From Exiguobacterium sp. (GTDB lineage Bacteria > Bacillota > Bacilli > Exiguobacteriales > Exiguobacteriaceae), in NCBI RefSeq assembly GCF_020832205.1, contig NZ_JAFIFD010000048.1, positions 17,570 to 81,569 of the forward strand: a stretch of DNA of 64,000 nt, given 5' to 3'. The notes beneath the pieces are model-generated. The model had not been told where the DNA came from, searched no databases, and was given only the letters and a program-made list of their open reading frames with translations. Below, piece by piece: positions 31,273 to 37,041 of the stretch (its first letter is position 1; every line of letters begins with the position of its first letter). The translations under genes and the position numbers were made by a program.

Positions 31273-31303
31273 AACAGGCCTGATCACATTGATCAGGCCT
31301 GTT
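31273..31303. terminator. Perfect 14-bp inverted-repeat terminator between convergent genes
   Basis: AACAGGCCTGATCA-CAT-TGATCAGGCCTGTT; contains the stop codon of the GNAT gene. Confidence 0.75.
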
Positions 31304-31985
31304 CGCGTTCATAACGGACGTACCAGTTGTCGCCATCTTGACGCATCCCCGTGCCGTACCAACCGTCTTCTAACCGTTCTGCCTGCAACGACGTGTCCGC
31401 CATGTCAATCCATTCCGGCTCTCCGCCCGGTTGCCAACCGGTATGGAGCTCTTTCATGAAAATATAGCGAAGCTTGCCGCCGTATTTCAGCTTCAACGCA
31501 CCAATCCGTAAGCCGAGGGCGAACTTGTCTTTTAGACTCGGGATATTGAACGGAGCGACGGTTGCGCAGACGAGGTCGAACCGGCTATCTTGACTCAACT
31601 CCTCCATCAACAGACGGCCAAGGTGTTGCTGGAGACGATACCCACGAAAAGAGGGGTGCACGTTCGTCACTTCTTGATAAATAATCCGGTCGAGTCCATG
31701 CTCGGGATAACCGATGTCCCGTCCGAGATGCTCCTCGTCAAGCGGCGGGATGAGGAGCGCCCGAAACGCGATCAACGTCTCGTCATGGAACGCTCCAAGC
31801 ATCGTCTTGTCCGCCAACAGTTTCCGGAACTCTTCGGTCGAAAGCGACTCATACTGGCTCGCGAACGCCAACTCGGCCACGACCGCGTCTTGAACCGCTT
31901 CGATTTGCGAGAGATCATCGGCCGACAAATAGCGGACGCTTAGCGTGATTCCGTTCCATACCCCGTTCCATACCTCGTCTCGCAT
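31293..31985 (-). CDS. GNAT family N-acyltransferase
   Basis: VTNVHPSFRGYRLQQHLGRLLMEEL motif-A-like region; TGATG overlap with the upstream enolase-superfamily gene. Confidence 0.7.
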   Translation of the reverse strand: MRDEVWNGVWNGITLSVRYLSADDLSQIEAVQDAVVAELAFASQYESLSTEEFRKLLADKTMLGAFHDETLIAFRALLIPPLDEEHLGRDIGYPEHGLDRIIYQEVTNVHPSFRGYRLQQHLGRLLMEELSQDSRFDLVCATVAPFNIPSLKDKFALGLRIGALKLKYGGKLRYIFMKELHTGWQPGGEPEWIDMADTSLQAERLEDGWYGTGMRQDGDNWYVRYEREQA

Positions 31986-33097
31986 CAGTCGATCACCTCG
32001 TAACGTGCCGTCGTCAATCGTTCGAGCACTGCTTCATCGACATCGATCCCGAGCCCAGGTTGATCGTTCAATCGAATGTGCGGCAAGTCGTACGATAAGT
32101 TGCCGATGTCTTCAGAGAAACGGAGCGGTCCCGTCAATTCGACCGAATGAACGATTTTGCTTGAAAAGGCGACGTGGAAACCGGCACTCGAAGCGACGGA
32201 CGATTCGACCATCGATCCGATTTGACACTCGATCCCTGACATCTCTGCGACATGGAGAAGTTTTTTTGCCGGATAAATGCCGCCACACTTCATGAGCTTG
32301 ATGTTCACTTTGTGGGCGGCCTGCATCATCGTCAATCGACGCATCTCACTCATGCCCCGGACGCCTTCATCGATCATGAGCGGCACATTGATCTTCGATT
32401 TCACTTCGACCATGCCTTCGAAATCATCAGCACGGACCGGCTGCTCGACCCAATCGAGGTCATATCCGTCGAGTTGTTTCATCGCCTGCAGTGTTTTGCC
32501 GGCATTGACCCAGCCTTGATTCACGTCGATTCGAATCGGCACGCCCGGCCCTACCGCTTGACGTACCGCTGCGACGCGCTCGACGTCTGAGGCGACGTCG
32601 ACCCCGACTTTCATTTTGACCGACGTGTAGCCCGCCTCGATTTGTTGCTTCGCCTCATGCGCCATCGCTTCCGGTTCCCCTATGCTTAAAACGTGCGTCA
32701 CCGGGAAAGCGTCATGGTAACGTCCACCGATCCATTCATACACCGGAAGCCCAAGTTTTTTTCCGACGAGGTCGTGACAAGCGATATCGAGTGCCGCCTT
32801 AGCAGCCGGCACGTCACGGATGGCCCGGTCCATCACGTCATGGATTTGCTCGAGGTGCATCGGGTTTTTACCGAGCAACATCGGTCCGAGCAAGTGACGG
32901 ATGACGCTGATCGTGCTTTCGAGAGACTCGCCGGTGACGTGTTCGTCAGCTACGGCTTCCCCGTACCCGACATGACCACAGGCGCTCGTCATCTTGACAA
33001 TGACCGACGGCATGTCGTCGTAGCGATGATAACTGACGATAAACGGTACTTTTAGCGGTAACCGAATCGCGAATAATTCAATCTTCTCAATTTTCAT
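31985..33097 (-). CDS. Enolase superfamily (mandelate racemase / muconate lactonizing enzyme subgroup) racemase/epimerase-like enzyme
   Basis: YTSVKMKVG (KxK), RIDVNQGW, WVEQPV, MIDEGV, GSMVESSVASSAGFHVA; start after AAGGAG. Confidence 0.9.
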   Translation of the reverse strand: MKIEKIELFAIRLPLKVPFIVSYHRYDDMPSVIVKMTSACGHVGYGEAVADEHVTGESLESTISVIRHLLGPMLLGKNPMHLEQIHDVMDRAIRDVPAAKAALDIACHDLVGKKLGLPVYEWIGGRYHDAFPVTHVLSIGEPEAMAHEAKQQIEAGYTSVKMKVGVDVASDVERVAAVRQAVGPGVPIRIDVNQGWVNAGKTLQAMKQLDGYDLDWVEQPVRADDFEGMVEVKSKINVPLMIDEGVRGMSEMRRLTMMQAAHKVNIKLMKCGGIYPAKKLLHVAEMSGIECQIGSMVESSVASSAGFHVAFSSKIVHSVELTGPLRFSEDIGNLSYDLPHIRLNDQPGLGIDVDEAVLERLTTARYEVID

Positions 33098-33116
33098 GTT
33101 CATTGCTCCTTTACTT

Positions 33117-33159
33117 CTAACGTGTCGTTAGTTATATTGTCGTTAAATAGTCGCTATAT
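33117..33159. promoter_or_regulatory. Candidate operator in the divergent regulator/racemase promoter
   Basis: Palindrome CTAACG-TGT-CGTTAG (33117-33131), then TTGTCGTTAAATAGTCGCTA with TCGYTA cores at 33140 and 33151 (11 bp apart); related copy at ~35857-35875. Confidence 0.55.
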
Positions 33160-33176
33160 TGCAAGGAGGAGTTTTC

Positions 33177-34364
33177 ATGTCCATCCAAATCGCCATCGTC
33201 GGTTCGTCAGCGTTCGTCGCGACCGTCTCGCACGCCGCACCGAAATTCGACGATGTCCGTTTCGCCTACTTCACGTATACTCACCCTCGCGAAACGGCCC
33301 AGATCGCGGCACAGCTCGGATCTTACGACGGCGTCTTTTTTTCCGGGTCGTTCCCTTATGCCTATGCGACGCCTTATTTGAACGAGACGATCGCCCATCA
33401 CGTCGTACAAGATGAGACCGTCCTATTGACGACCATTTTATATGCGACGCTCGCCCAAAAGCTCGCTCTCGATGAATTGACGATCGATGTGAACGAACCG
33501 GAGCGGCTAAACGACATCTTCACGGCGTTTACCGACTTGACGCAACCCGCTGTGATGAAAATCGATCCGGATGTCGACTTCTCGGACGTGTTTCGCTTTC
33601 ACGTTTCGCATCAACAACGTGACTCCAAGTTGGCCGTAACGAGCATCGAGCGGGTTCATCGCCAACTGCTCGAAGAAGGATTTAACAGCCAGCTCATGAT
33701 CGAACCGGTCAGCACGGTCATCCATCATCTTGAAAACCTCATCGGCCAAGTCCGAAAGCATCTTGCCGACTTGTCTCAGTTCGCCATCGTCCTTTACGCC
33801 ACGACGAGCATTGCGCTGCGCGAGCATTTACACACGATGCGGCATCAAGGCCACGTCTAAACCCAAGACGATACGCCTTTACTTCTCACGACAAAATGTG
33901 AGATTGCGCATGCCCTCGAGACAGCGACGTTGTCCCCTCGTGACGACGATTCCGTGATCGGCATCGGGTACGGTTCCGACTACCAGACGGCACTCGAGCA
34001 TGCCCGCATCGCCTTGTCCGCCTCAACCGAACAGCAGATGCGAATCGTCGATGCGACGAAACGGTTGTCGTTCCCGGAAAGTGGCGAATCTGTCCAGTAT
34101 CGGGTGACCGACGAGAATGCTTTTGACATAATTAAACGAATCGGGATCAGCCCGGTGAACATCGGAAAGATTCTTGCGTTTTCCAAACGTAAACATGAGT
34201 TCACCGCTAAAGAATTGACTGACTATCTCGGGGTATCTCGACGGACGACGGAACGGCTCATCAAAAAACTTCATGATGCCGGATTCGTCGATGTGATCGG
34301 CGAAGAGATGAGTTATGCCCAAGGACGTCCCCGCGCCGTCTATATATTTAAGTTACCGTCCTGA
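33177..34364 (+). pseudogene. Transcriptional regulator with degenerate GGDEF-like domain and C-terminal winged helix, interrupted by in-frame TAA at 33858-33860
   Basis: ORFs 33159..33860 and 33930..34364 are in the same frame; read-through ...MRHQGHV*TQDDTPLLLTTKCEIAHALETATLSPRDDDSVIGIGYGSDYQTALEHARIAL...FTAKELTDYLGVSRRTTERLIKKLHDAGFVDV. Confidence 0.75.
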
Positions 34365-34402
34365 AAACAGGCGCATCGCACATGAGCGACGCGCCTGTTT
34401 TT
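34364..34402. terminator. Convergent terminator
   Basis: AAAACAGGCGCatcgcacatgagcgacGCGCCTGTTTTT. Confidence 0.75.
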
Positions 34403-35822
34403 ATTGGGCTTCCTGTTCAATCGGCGGTTCTGCCTTCAACACGTGAAGCTTTGCAATCGTGAAGCCAGTGAACGCGTAAATGATGGAGATGACCGGTACG
34501 ATAAAGTTCAAGATGGCATATGGCGCATACTCGAACGCCCCGACGCCGAGCGTACCGAGAATGAACACCCCGCACGTGTTCCACGGAATGAACACCGATG
34601 TGAGCGTCCCGCCGTCCTCGAGTGCGCGGGATAGATTTTTTGATTGGAGTCCCATCTTCTCATAAGCACCGGCAAACATGCGCGCCGGGACGACGATTGA
34701 TATGTACTGTTCAGAACACGTCGCGTTCGTAGCAAAACCGGCCAAAATCGTCGACGCGATCAGCGATCCGGCTGACTTCGCGAGTTTCACGATCTGATTC
34801 ATGATCGATTGGAGCATCCCCGAATATTCCAATATCCCCCCGAACGTCATCGCAACAATCGTCATCGAGACGGTGTACATCATCGCGTCTAACCCGCCCC
34901 GACTGAACAAGTTGTCGACGAGTTCGTTCCCCGTATCGATGACGTACCCGCTCTGGAGCGCTCCGACGCTGTCAGCGAGCGAACCGCCTTGGACGAAGAC
35001 TTGTGCGAGGAAACCGAGCGCGATCCCGACGACGAGCGCCGGGATGGCCGGCACTTTTTTTGCGACGAGCACGATGACGGCAAGCGGAATCAGCAGCAGC
35101 CACGGCGAGATGAGAAAACTGTCTTTTAAAATCCCAAGCGTCTGTGTGATCTCCGATGAATCCGTCGACGTCTCTCTGAATCGTCTGCCGATCCAGAAAT
35201 AGACGCCGAGCGCAATCAACAACCCCGGGATCGTCGTATACAGCATGTGACGAATGTGTTCAAACAAGTTCGTGTGCGTCAATCCGGCTGCAAGGTTCGT
35301 CGTGTCCGACAGCGGCGACATCTTGTCCCCGAAGTACGCTCCTGAGATGACCGCCCCCGCGACCATCGCTGCCGGAATCCCCATACTGAGCCCAATCCCC
35401 ATCCCGGCGACACCAATCGTCCCCATCGTCGACCAAGAACTGCCGATTGAGAGGGCGACGACGGCACAAATCAAGCAAATCGTGACGAGGAAATAAGCCG
35501 GTGAGATGATCGTCAATCCGTAGTAAATCATCGTCGCGACAATCCCTCCCCCGATCCAGGCACCGATCGTCAACCCGACGAGAATGATGATGACGACGGC
35601 CGGCAATGCGAGCCGAATCCCTTTGTACATCATCTCCTCGATCTCTTTCCACTTGAAACCGTGCTTGTAGGCGACGATCGATGCGACTGCCGTCCCGATG
35701 ATGAGCGGGATGTGCGGTCCTTGCTCGAGCAAGACGATCGCCACCAGCATGACCCCGATCATGACAAGTAGCGGCAGAATCGCCCACCCGAGCTTCATTT
35801 CTAATTTGTTCCCCTGTTCCAT
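34401..35822 (-). CDS. NhaC-family Na+/H+ antiporter-like transporter
   Basis: About 12 TM; SIGSSWSTMGTIGVAGMGIGLSMGIPAAMVAGAVISGAYFGDKMSPLSDTTNLA. Confidence 0.93.
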   Translation of the reverse strand: MEQGNKLEMKLGWAILPLLVMIGVMLVAIVLLEQGPHIPLIIGTAVASIVAYKHGFKWKEIEEMMYKGIRLALPAVVIIILVGLTIGAWIGGGIVATMIYYGLTIISPAYFLVTICLICAVVALSIGSSWSTMGTIGVAGMGIGLSMGIPAAMVAGAVISGAYFGDKMSPLSDTTNLAAGLTHTNLFEHIRHMLYTTIPGLLIALGVYFWIGRRFRETSTDSSEITQTLGILKDSFLISPWLLLIPLAVIVLVAKKVPAIPALVVGIALGFLAQVFVQGGSLADSVGALQSGYVIDTGNELVDNLFSRGGLDAMMYTVSMTIVAMTFGGILEYSGMLQSIMNQIVKLAKSAGSLIASTILAGFATNATCSEQYISIVVPARMFAGAYEKMGLQSKNLSRALEDGGTLTSVFIPWNTCGVFILGTLGVGAFEYAPYAILNFIVPVISIIYAFTGFTIAKLHVLKAEPPIEQEAQ

Positions 35823-35835
35823 ACGTTTTCCTCCC

Positions 35836-35898
35836 CGTTAGCGAAAAATTCAGAATTGTCGTTATATTGTCGCTAATAGAATTATGATAACGCTTACA
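35836..35898. promoter_or_regulatory. Candidate operator plus cre-like site upstream of the NhaC-family gene
   Basis: TTGTCGTTATATTGTCGCTA (cores at 35859 and 35870, 11 bp apart) matching the 33.1-kb motif; ATGATAACGCTTACA (35884-35898) has one mismatch to cre. Confidence 0.5.
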
Positions 35899-35931
35899 TC
35901 GTTTCTTGGCAATAGAAAAAAGACGAAAGCA

Positions 35932-37041
35932 TTATGCTCCCGTCTCTATCCCTACTACCGCTCGCCGCAACGTATCGGCGAGCAAAAGCGCCCCTTCTTG
36001 TAACACGGACCGGTCAAACGTCATCTCTGGGTGATGGAGGCCCGGCGTCAAGTTCGCGCCGATCCCGATCATCGTCGCATCGAGCGTCGGTTGTTTGACC
36101 GTATAAAAATGAAAGTCATCGCTCCCCGACGTGACGACGCGCTCGACGAGTGCCGAAGGACCGTAACGCTCCACGATTGCCTCGCTCGCATGACGGCTCG
36201 ACATTGGACCGACGACGGCGCCCGGCGTGAAATCTTCCCAAGCCCAGTCAATCGTCACCCCGTGGAGACTAGCGATTTGAGACAACATCGTCTCGACGCG
36301 GTCACGTAAAGCGAGCAGCTCATCGTTCGCTTGTGCGCGCACATCAATCGAAAACGTGGCGTTGCCCGGGATGATGTTCAAGTTATCACTTCCTGCCTGG
36401 ACGCCTGTCAACTTGATCGAGTGTGGCTCGAACGGGGACAAATAAATATTTTTCAACTGTTGCTGAATCGTGAACACGACATCGAGCGCATTTTGCCCTT
36501 GGTGCGGGCGCGCACCGTGCGCATCGTCCCCGAGGATACGGCCTTTCATAAAAATGGCGGCCCCGTGTTGAATCGTCGCCGCAAATTGACCGAGTGCCAG
36601 CTCCTCGGCAGGACGCAAGTGAATGCCATACAGCTCGGTCACGTCGGCGAGTGCCCCTTTTGAAATCATCGCGAGCGAACCGTTCCCTTGTTCTTCGGCC
36701 GGTTGAAAGATGAACCGGATTCGTTTCGACAACTCCTCATGTCTCAAGATGTCGAGCGCGCCGAGCACCATGCTGATGTTGGCGTCGTGCCCGCACGAAT
36801 GGTTTGCTTTGAACGTTCCGTCAACTTGTTGCCATAAGGCGTCAATATCGGCGCGGACGGCGATGACTTCCTCCCCAGCACCGATTTCGGCGATGACACC
36901 CGTGACGTCGTCGTACGTCTCGTGACGAACTCCCCATGACGCCAGGATGGCCGCAATCGTCGATGTCGTTTCAACTTCTTTCCAACTCACTTCAGGATGA
37001 GCGTGAAAGTGTTCGAACCATGTCAGTACGTTTGTACTCAT
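35932..37041 (-). CDS. M20 family amidohydrolase / aminoacylase-like peptidase
   Basis: RADIDALW, NHSCGHDANISMVLGAL, FIFQPAEEQGNGS, GIHLRP. Confidence 0.93.
   Translation of the reverse strand: MSTNVLTWFEHFHAHPEVSWKEVETTSTIAAILASWGVRHETYDDVTGVIAEIGAGEEVIAVRADIDALWQQVDGTFKANHSCGHDANISMVLGALDILRHEELSKRIRFIFQPAEEQGNGSLAMISKGALADVTELYGIHLRPAEELALGQFAATIQHGAAIFMKGRILGDDAHGARPHQGQNALDVVFTIQQQLKNIYLSPFEPHSIKLTGVQAGSDNLNIIPGNATFSIDVRAQANDELLALRDRVETMLSQIASLHGVTIDWAWEDFTPGAVVGPMSSRHASEAIVERYGPSALVERVVTSGSDDFHFYTVKQPTLDATMIGIGANLTPGLHHPEMTFDRSVLQEGALLLADTLRRAVVGIETGA

Follow-up and report, generated by a model that had tools for sequence, protein, structure and literature searches.

Organization of the locus and its probable pathway

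Within the window (the whole 64-kb stretch of Exiguobacterium DNA that was analysed), two short tandem sites, here termed O1 and O2, flank genes of a five-gene block encoding an acyltransferase-like protein, a racemase, a regulator, an antiporter, and an M20 hydrolase. The racemase gene (31985–33103, minus strand) encodes an enolase-superfamily enzyme that is a close relative of PDB entries 2P88, 2P8B, and 2P8C, which we take to be the N-succinyl-Arg/Lys racemase of B. cereus; the match to 2P88 (E = 3e-155) extends over nearly the full length, with an identity of ~65% as read by eye. The acyltransferase-like gene (31293–31985, minus strand) adjoins the end of the racemase gene; its product matched no Pfam family, and its weak assignment follows from a GNAT-type motif recognized by eye, the stretch "V.P..RG.GLQ" in the alignment. 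The two remaining enzyme and transporter genes, both on the minus strand, encode an NhaC/ArcD-type antiporter (34401–35822) and a clear M20 amidohydrolase (35932–37041), a candidate N-acyl-amino-acid deacylase, in a block that is conserved in other families.

Conversion of D- to L-amino acids is known to proceed via N-succinyl derivatives, using an acyltransferase, a racemase, and an M20 deacylase. The Exiguobacterium locus resembles the N-succinyl-amino-acid racemase pathway known from Geobacillus kaustophilus and B. cereus in its racemase, whose gene adjoins that of the acyltransferase-like protein, with the M20 hydrolase gene near; it adds an NhaC/ArcD-type antiporter and a regulator. The substrates at this locus are probably D-Arg and D-Lys (D-Arg/D-Lys), either free or N-acylated, and the encoded pathway would comprise amino acid uptake and conversion via N-acyl intermediates by the acyltransferase, racemase, and M20 deacylase.

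The regulator

The regulator gene (33177–34364, plus strand; 395 codons) is interrupted by an in-frame TAA at 33861–33863. An intact regulator is encoded in each of the other 18 Exiguobacterium genomes (frame open in 18/18 congeners), such that the TAA is confined to this genome, where it occupies codon 228 (GAA in the congener G014). Synonymous and nonsynonymous codon differences from G014 number 49 and 34 before the TAA, and 34 and 22 after it; because the differences are similar on both sides, the TAA would be either recent or a base-call error.

The regulator has a PrpR_N-like N-terminal domain, a middle domain resembling GTP cyclohydrolase III and GGDEF proteins, and a C-terminal winged helix-turn-helix (HTH) that falls near HTH_11/MarR-type models. 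In an AlphaFold2 model of the E. alkaliphilum ortholog (pLDDT 84, pTM 0.64), Foldseek matched the N-terminal half to PrpR (2pju, E = 3e-5) and to 2q5c, and the end of the protein to winged-HTH regulators. At the sequence level, 6 of 20 regulator members gave a weak match to Pfam PrpR_N (best E = 0.017), distant homologs showed a weak middle-region match to GTP cyclohydrolase IIa, and the regulator profile had no significant match among PDB sequences. Neither a sigma-54 AAA+ domain nor an OmpR-type domain was found in the 395-residue protein, and a search of plasmid records for annotated homologs gave two matches, both named "hypothetical protein." Given the fold matches to the PrpR sensor and to a winged HTH at the end of the protein, the best reading is a ligand-sensing one-component repressor. 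The N-terminal half of the model resembles the sensor domain of PrpR of Salmonella and E. coli; unlike PrpR, this regulator lacks a sigma-54 AAA+ domain, has a C-terminal winged HTH, and is associated with predicted sigma-A promoters and predicted repression.

Sequence and uniqueness of the tandem sites

O1 (TAGCGACTATTTAACGACAAT; 33136–33156, minus strand) lies in the intergenic region between the racemase and regulator genes, and O2 (TAGCGACAATATAACGACAATTC; 35853–35875, minus strand) lies 5' of the antiporter gene; both sequences quoted in the original prediction were found at these positions. The pattern TARCGAC-N4-TAACGAC is common to O1 and to the 21-bp core of O2 (TAGCGACAATATAACGACAAT; 35855–35875, minus strand). 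Each site therefore consists of two 7-bp heptamers in direct repeat rather than a palindrome, and the 11-bp spacing of the cores, as originally described, is present at both and corresponds to one helical turn.

When up to three mismatches were allowed, the 21-mer had exactly two matches in the window (none in shuffled sequence) and exactly two in the 2.78-Mb Exiguobacterium genome (none for the reversed control), and exact matches genome-wide to the more general 18-mer TARCGACNNNNTARCGAC were O1 and O2 only. A third match to TARCGACNNNNTARCGAC, with one mismatch (C15:30937), was dismissed as being at chance level, with two such matches for the reversed control. As had been predicted, the motif is restricted to the gap between regulator and racemase and to the region upstream of the transporter, with no random scatter across the genome. 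The shared sequence, taken alone, might be put down to chance similarity or a copied repeat; this explanation has a virtually negligible probability in view of the zero matches in shuffled sequence, the footprinted conservation, and the occurrence of the motif in several families.

Conservation within Exiguobacterium

The five-gene block is syntenic in the same 18 congeners, except for G003, which has no antiporter gene. Over the 21 bp of O1, 18 Exiguobacterium species (counting this one) show 95.5% column identity, which falls to 65% in the 18 columns that follow; O2 is invariant (100% across its 21 bp) wherever the transporter is present (18 species), and the columns that follow it are at 76%. 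In 19 genomes of the sister genus, which serve as a negative control, the regulator, the racemase, and the motif are all absent.

Individual congeners depart from this arrangement. In G002 (L043), the O1-equivalent site is shortened by exactly one 11-bp unit, and the antiporter has a 47-residue in-frame deletion. In G003 (L047), the antiporter and its operator are both absent, and the regulator and the other operator are kept.

Promoter context and the predicted sign of regulation

For the regulator gene, a sigma-A promoter is predicted (TTTACT-17-TATATT; 33110–33138, plus strand), with a −10 element that abuts O1. Its −35 (TTTACT) and −10 (TATATT) elements are conserved islands in the genus, between which the 17-bp spacing is kept while the letters of the spacer diverge. 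On the opposite strand, a tentative racemase promoter (TTGCAA-17-GACAAT; 33136–33164, minus strand) was identified by inspection, with O1 filling its spacer and −10 element; this promoter is invariant in the genus, but weak and unrecognizable in outgroups. O2 is preceded by the sigma-A promoter predicted for the antiporter gene (TTGCCA-17-TATCAT; 35884–35912, minus strand) and starts 8 bp after its −10 element, near +1, a register that is identical in the outgroups G038, G079, and G387. Across most loci with a scorable promoter, the operator starts 5–16 bp after the −10 element on the sense strand.

Repression is the most likely sign of regulation, because the sites either follow a sigma-A −10 element closely or abut one. 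We infer that the regulator on O1 would block sigma-A RNA polymerase at its own promoter, with autorepression being favored on this arrangement, and tentatively at the racemase promoter, and that on O2 it would block the polymerase at the antiporter promoter. Alternatively, the regulator could bind O1 and O2 but act as an inducer-dependent activator of the racemase and antiporter genes, with repression limited to its own gene. The operator almost always points the same way with respect to the regulated gene, as is often needed by direct-repeat activators, the racemase promoter is weak, and the N-terminal domain of the regulator resembles that of the activator PrpR. However, activator sites are normally upstream of the −35 element, whereas the antiporter site begins at ~+1, 8 bp after the −10 element, with similar placing in other families; activation from a position such as that of O2 would be unusual, and we regard this alternative as unlikely.

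CcpA cre sites have a known consensus, which is matched by the sequence ATGTAAGCGTTATCA (35885–35899, minus strand). This cre-like site overlaps the antiporter promoter and is kept in most of the genus, but is an element separate from the tandem motif; it suggests that carbon catabolite control may act on top of the local regulator at the antiporter promoter.

Third cores and the palindrome

The original prediction included a third core near O1, as part of the palindrome CTAACG-TGT-CGTTAG (CTAACGTGTCGTTAG). This sequence is present at 33117–33131, inside the spacer (17 bp) of the promoter predicted for the regulator, but it is not conserved: the exact palindrome is kept in 1 of the 17 congeners that still have the tandem site at O1, and the third core on this side has the form TARCGA in five of them, a decayed form (TAATGA) in four, and no counterpart in eight. 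The distance from the palindrome core to the second O1 heptamer is 15 bp, not 11. On account of this poor conservation across congeners, we rejected the third core and the palindrome as part of the operator.

An inverted third core (TAGCGA, or TCGCTA on the minus strand; 35839–35844, plus strand) lies downstream of O2, and is largely kept within the genus and absent in G038. In the f22 family clade, an inverted third half follows the second unit (ACGACAnnTGTCG). Loci L096, L102, L107, L108, L130, L132, and L133 have an inverted third half-site (ACGACA-nn-TGTCG) after the operator.

O2 would be transcribed, and pairing of TTAGCGA...TCGCTAA is possible close to the ribosome-binding site, which is compatible with an RNA-level element such as a leader hairpin or riboswitch in place of a DNA operator. 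Against this, predicted folding is barely above that of shuffled sequences (z = −0.19 and −1.29), there is no Rfam match, G038 lacks the pairing partner, which is broken in G007 and G002, and the direct repeat has no self-complementarity of its own, all of which renders an RNA element extremely improbable.

Recurrence across Bacilli

Equivalent blocks with operators at equivalent places were identified in Psychrobacillus (L066–L069) and in the outgroups G038, G079, and G387, in which the regulator (members checked by identity) is about one third identical. In remoter families, the operator precedes a racemase homolog, an M20 gene, or another gene adjacent to the regulator. A survey of the class covered 400 genomes, of which 62 encode a good regulator homolog (at least 100 bits). 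The exact motif occurs in 56 of these 62 genomes and in 9 of the 338 genomes without such a homolog (Fisher p = 1.3e-51, with genomes treated as independent despite shared ancestry); outside the genus the figures are 37/43 and 9/338 (p = 1.5e-36, read in the same way, since ancestry is shared). Of 93 motif sites in the survey, 77 are <9 kb from a regulator gene. Six genomes have a homolog and no exact motif, and five of these (G305, G238, G352, G369, and G377) have a site with one mismatch in the locus.

Unlinked sites were also found: they precede M20 in G180, an operon of a racemase paralog in G185, and, in G394, a row of genes that resembles a peptide ABC transporter by gene sizes alone. 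In a further locus (L124; G357:C9, 6757–6988) there are two short TAGCGAC arrays with an 11-bp period on opposite strands, and no regulator homolog.

Footprinting with regulator orthologs, a check put forward with the original prediction, thus indicates that the site is conserved with the regulator both within Exiguobacterium and in far more distant groups; the alternative outcome, a motif not conserved with the regulator in relatives, is not what we found. The expectation of a local regulon is borne out insofar as the sites look like local operators, but they are not limited to this locus, being the probable general site of the regulator subfamily in several families of Bacilli. The same data bear on the alternative that O1 and O2 belong to a different, global regulator, with the local association being incidental. 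The cre-like site at the antiporter promoter signifies that more than one regulator may act there, but there are no sites elsewhere in the genome, the motif co-occurs with the local regulator across the class, and the type of recognition helix agrees with motif presence (see below), so that a global regulator is very unlikely.

Geometry of the proposed operators and the recognition helix

Heptamer spacing was counted in 52 loci that were either linked to a regulator or motif-bearing. Among direct heptamer pairs within 45 bp, 63 of 70 are spaced exactly 11 bp, compared with an average of 0.05 such pairs in shuffled sequences. The weighted operator consensus is TTARCGACTATWTAACGACAA, with nearly invariant CGAC cores. 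Homologs that have the motif share the recognition helix [RK]R[TS]xERxxK, whereas distant homologs without the motif have a helix of type RNARR or RSxHR; in L104, the helix is changed to SRCGAER and the locus contains no motif. In L099 (G345) and L117 (G074) the helix is kept, and there is no site within one mismatch near the gene. In the proposed mechanism, the winged-helix domains of two subunits, aligned head-to-tail along the same DNA face, would read the two TARCGAC half-sites.

The Pho boxes of PhoB and PhoP, which are OmpR-family response regulators, consist of two direct units of 6–7 bp with an 11-bp period, bound head-to-tail on one DNA face. O1 and O2 are like Pho boxes in having direct-repeat units at an 11-bp period, but differ in the word that is repeated and in the regulator, which has no OmpR-type domain. 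Identity with Pho boxes was ruled out on the basis of the missing OmpR-type domain, the non-phosphate genes at the locus, and the absence of the motif in the sister genus.

Predicted regulation and its significance

We infer that O1 and O2 are very probably operators of the adjacent regulator, which would exert local repression, including autorepression, over an amino acid pathway. Repression would be lifted by a pathway ligand sensed in the PrpR_N-like domain. This regulon would serve the uptake and conversion of amino acids, with the D-form being probable. More broadly, we consider it reasonably probable that the regulator represents a previously undescribed one-component family of Bacilli, with a PrpR_N-like sensor, a degenerate GGDEF/GTP-cyclohydrolase-III-like domain, and a C-terminal winged HTH, that uses 11-bp-phased direct-repeat operators (with an inverted third half-site in one clade) and controls the uptake and racemization of D- and N-acyl-amino acids.

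The motif had not been recognized as a published one in the original prediction, and a literature search, with most subscription journals outside its coverage, likewise found no publication on the motif, and nothing on the regulator architecture or the regulated pathway; the papers found that mention the racemase do not refer to regulation in title or abstract. The operator and the regulator family appear to be undescribed, while local repressors paired with an operator are a familiar kind of system.

Should the TAA in the regulator gene be genuine, neither O1 nor O2 would be occupied and the locus would be derepressed in this particular genome. For the family, the operator and the recognition helix together provide a testable DNA code for regulators that are widespread in Bacilli. 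The racemase, M20, and transporter genes concerned can readily receive a wrong name, such as dipeptide epimerase or Na+/H+ antiporter, and the operator could be used to find members of the regulon and help to assign the functions of these genes.
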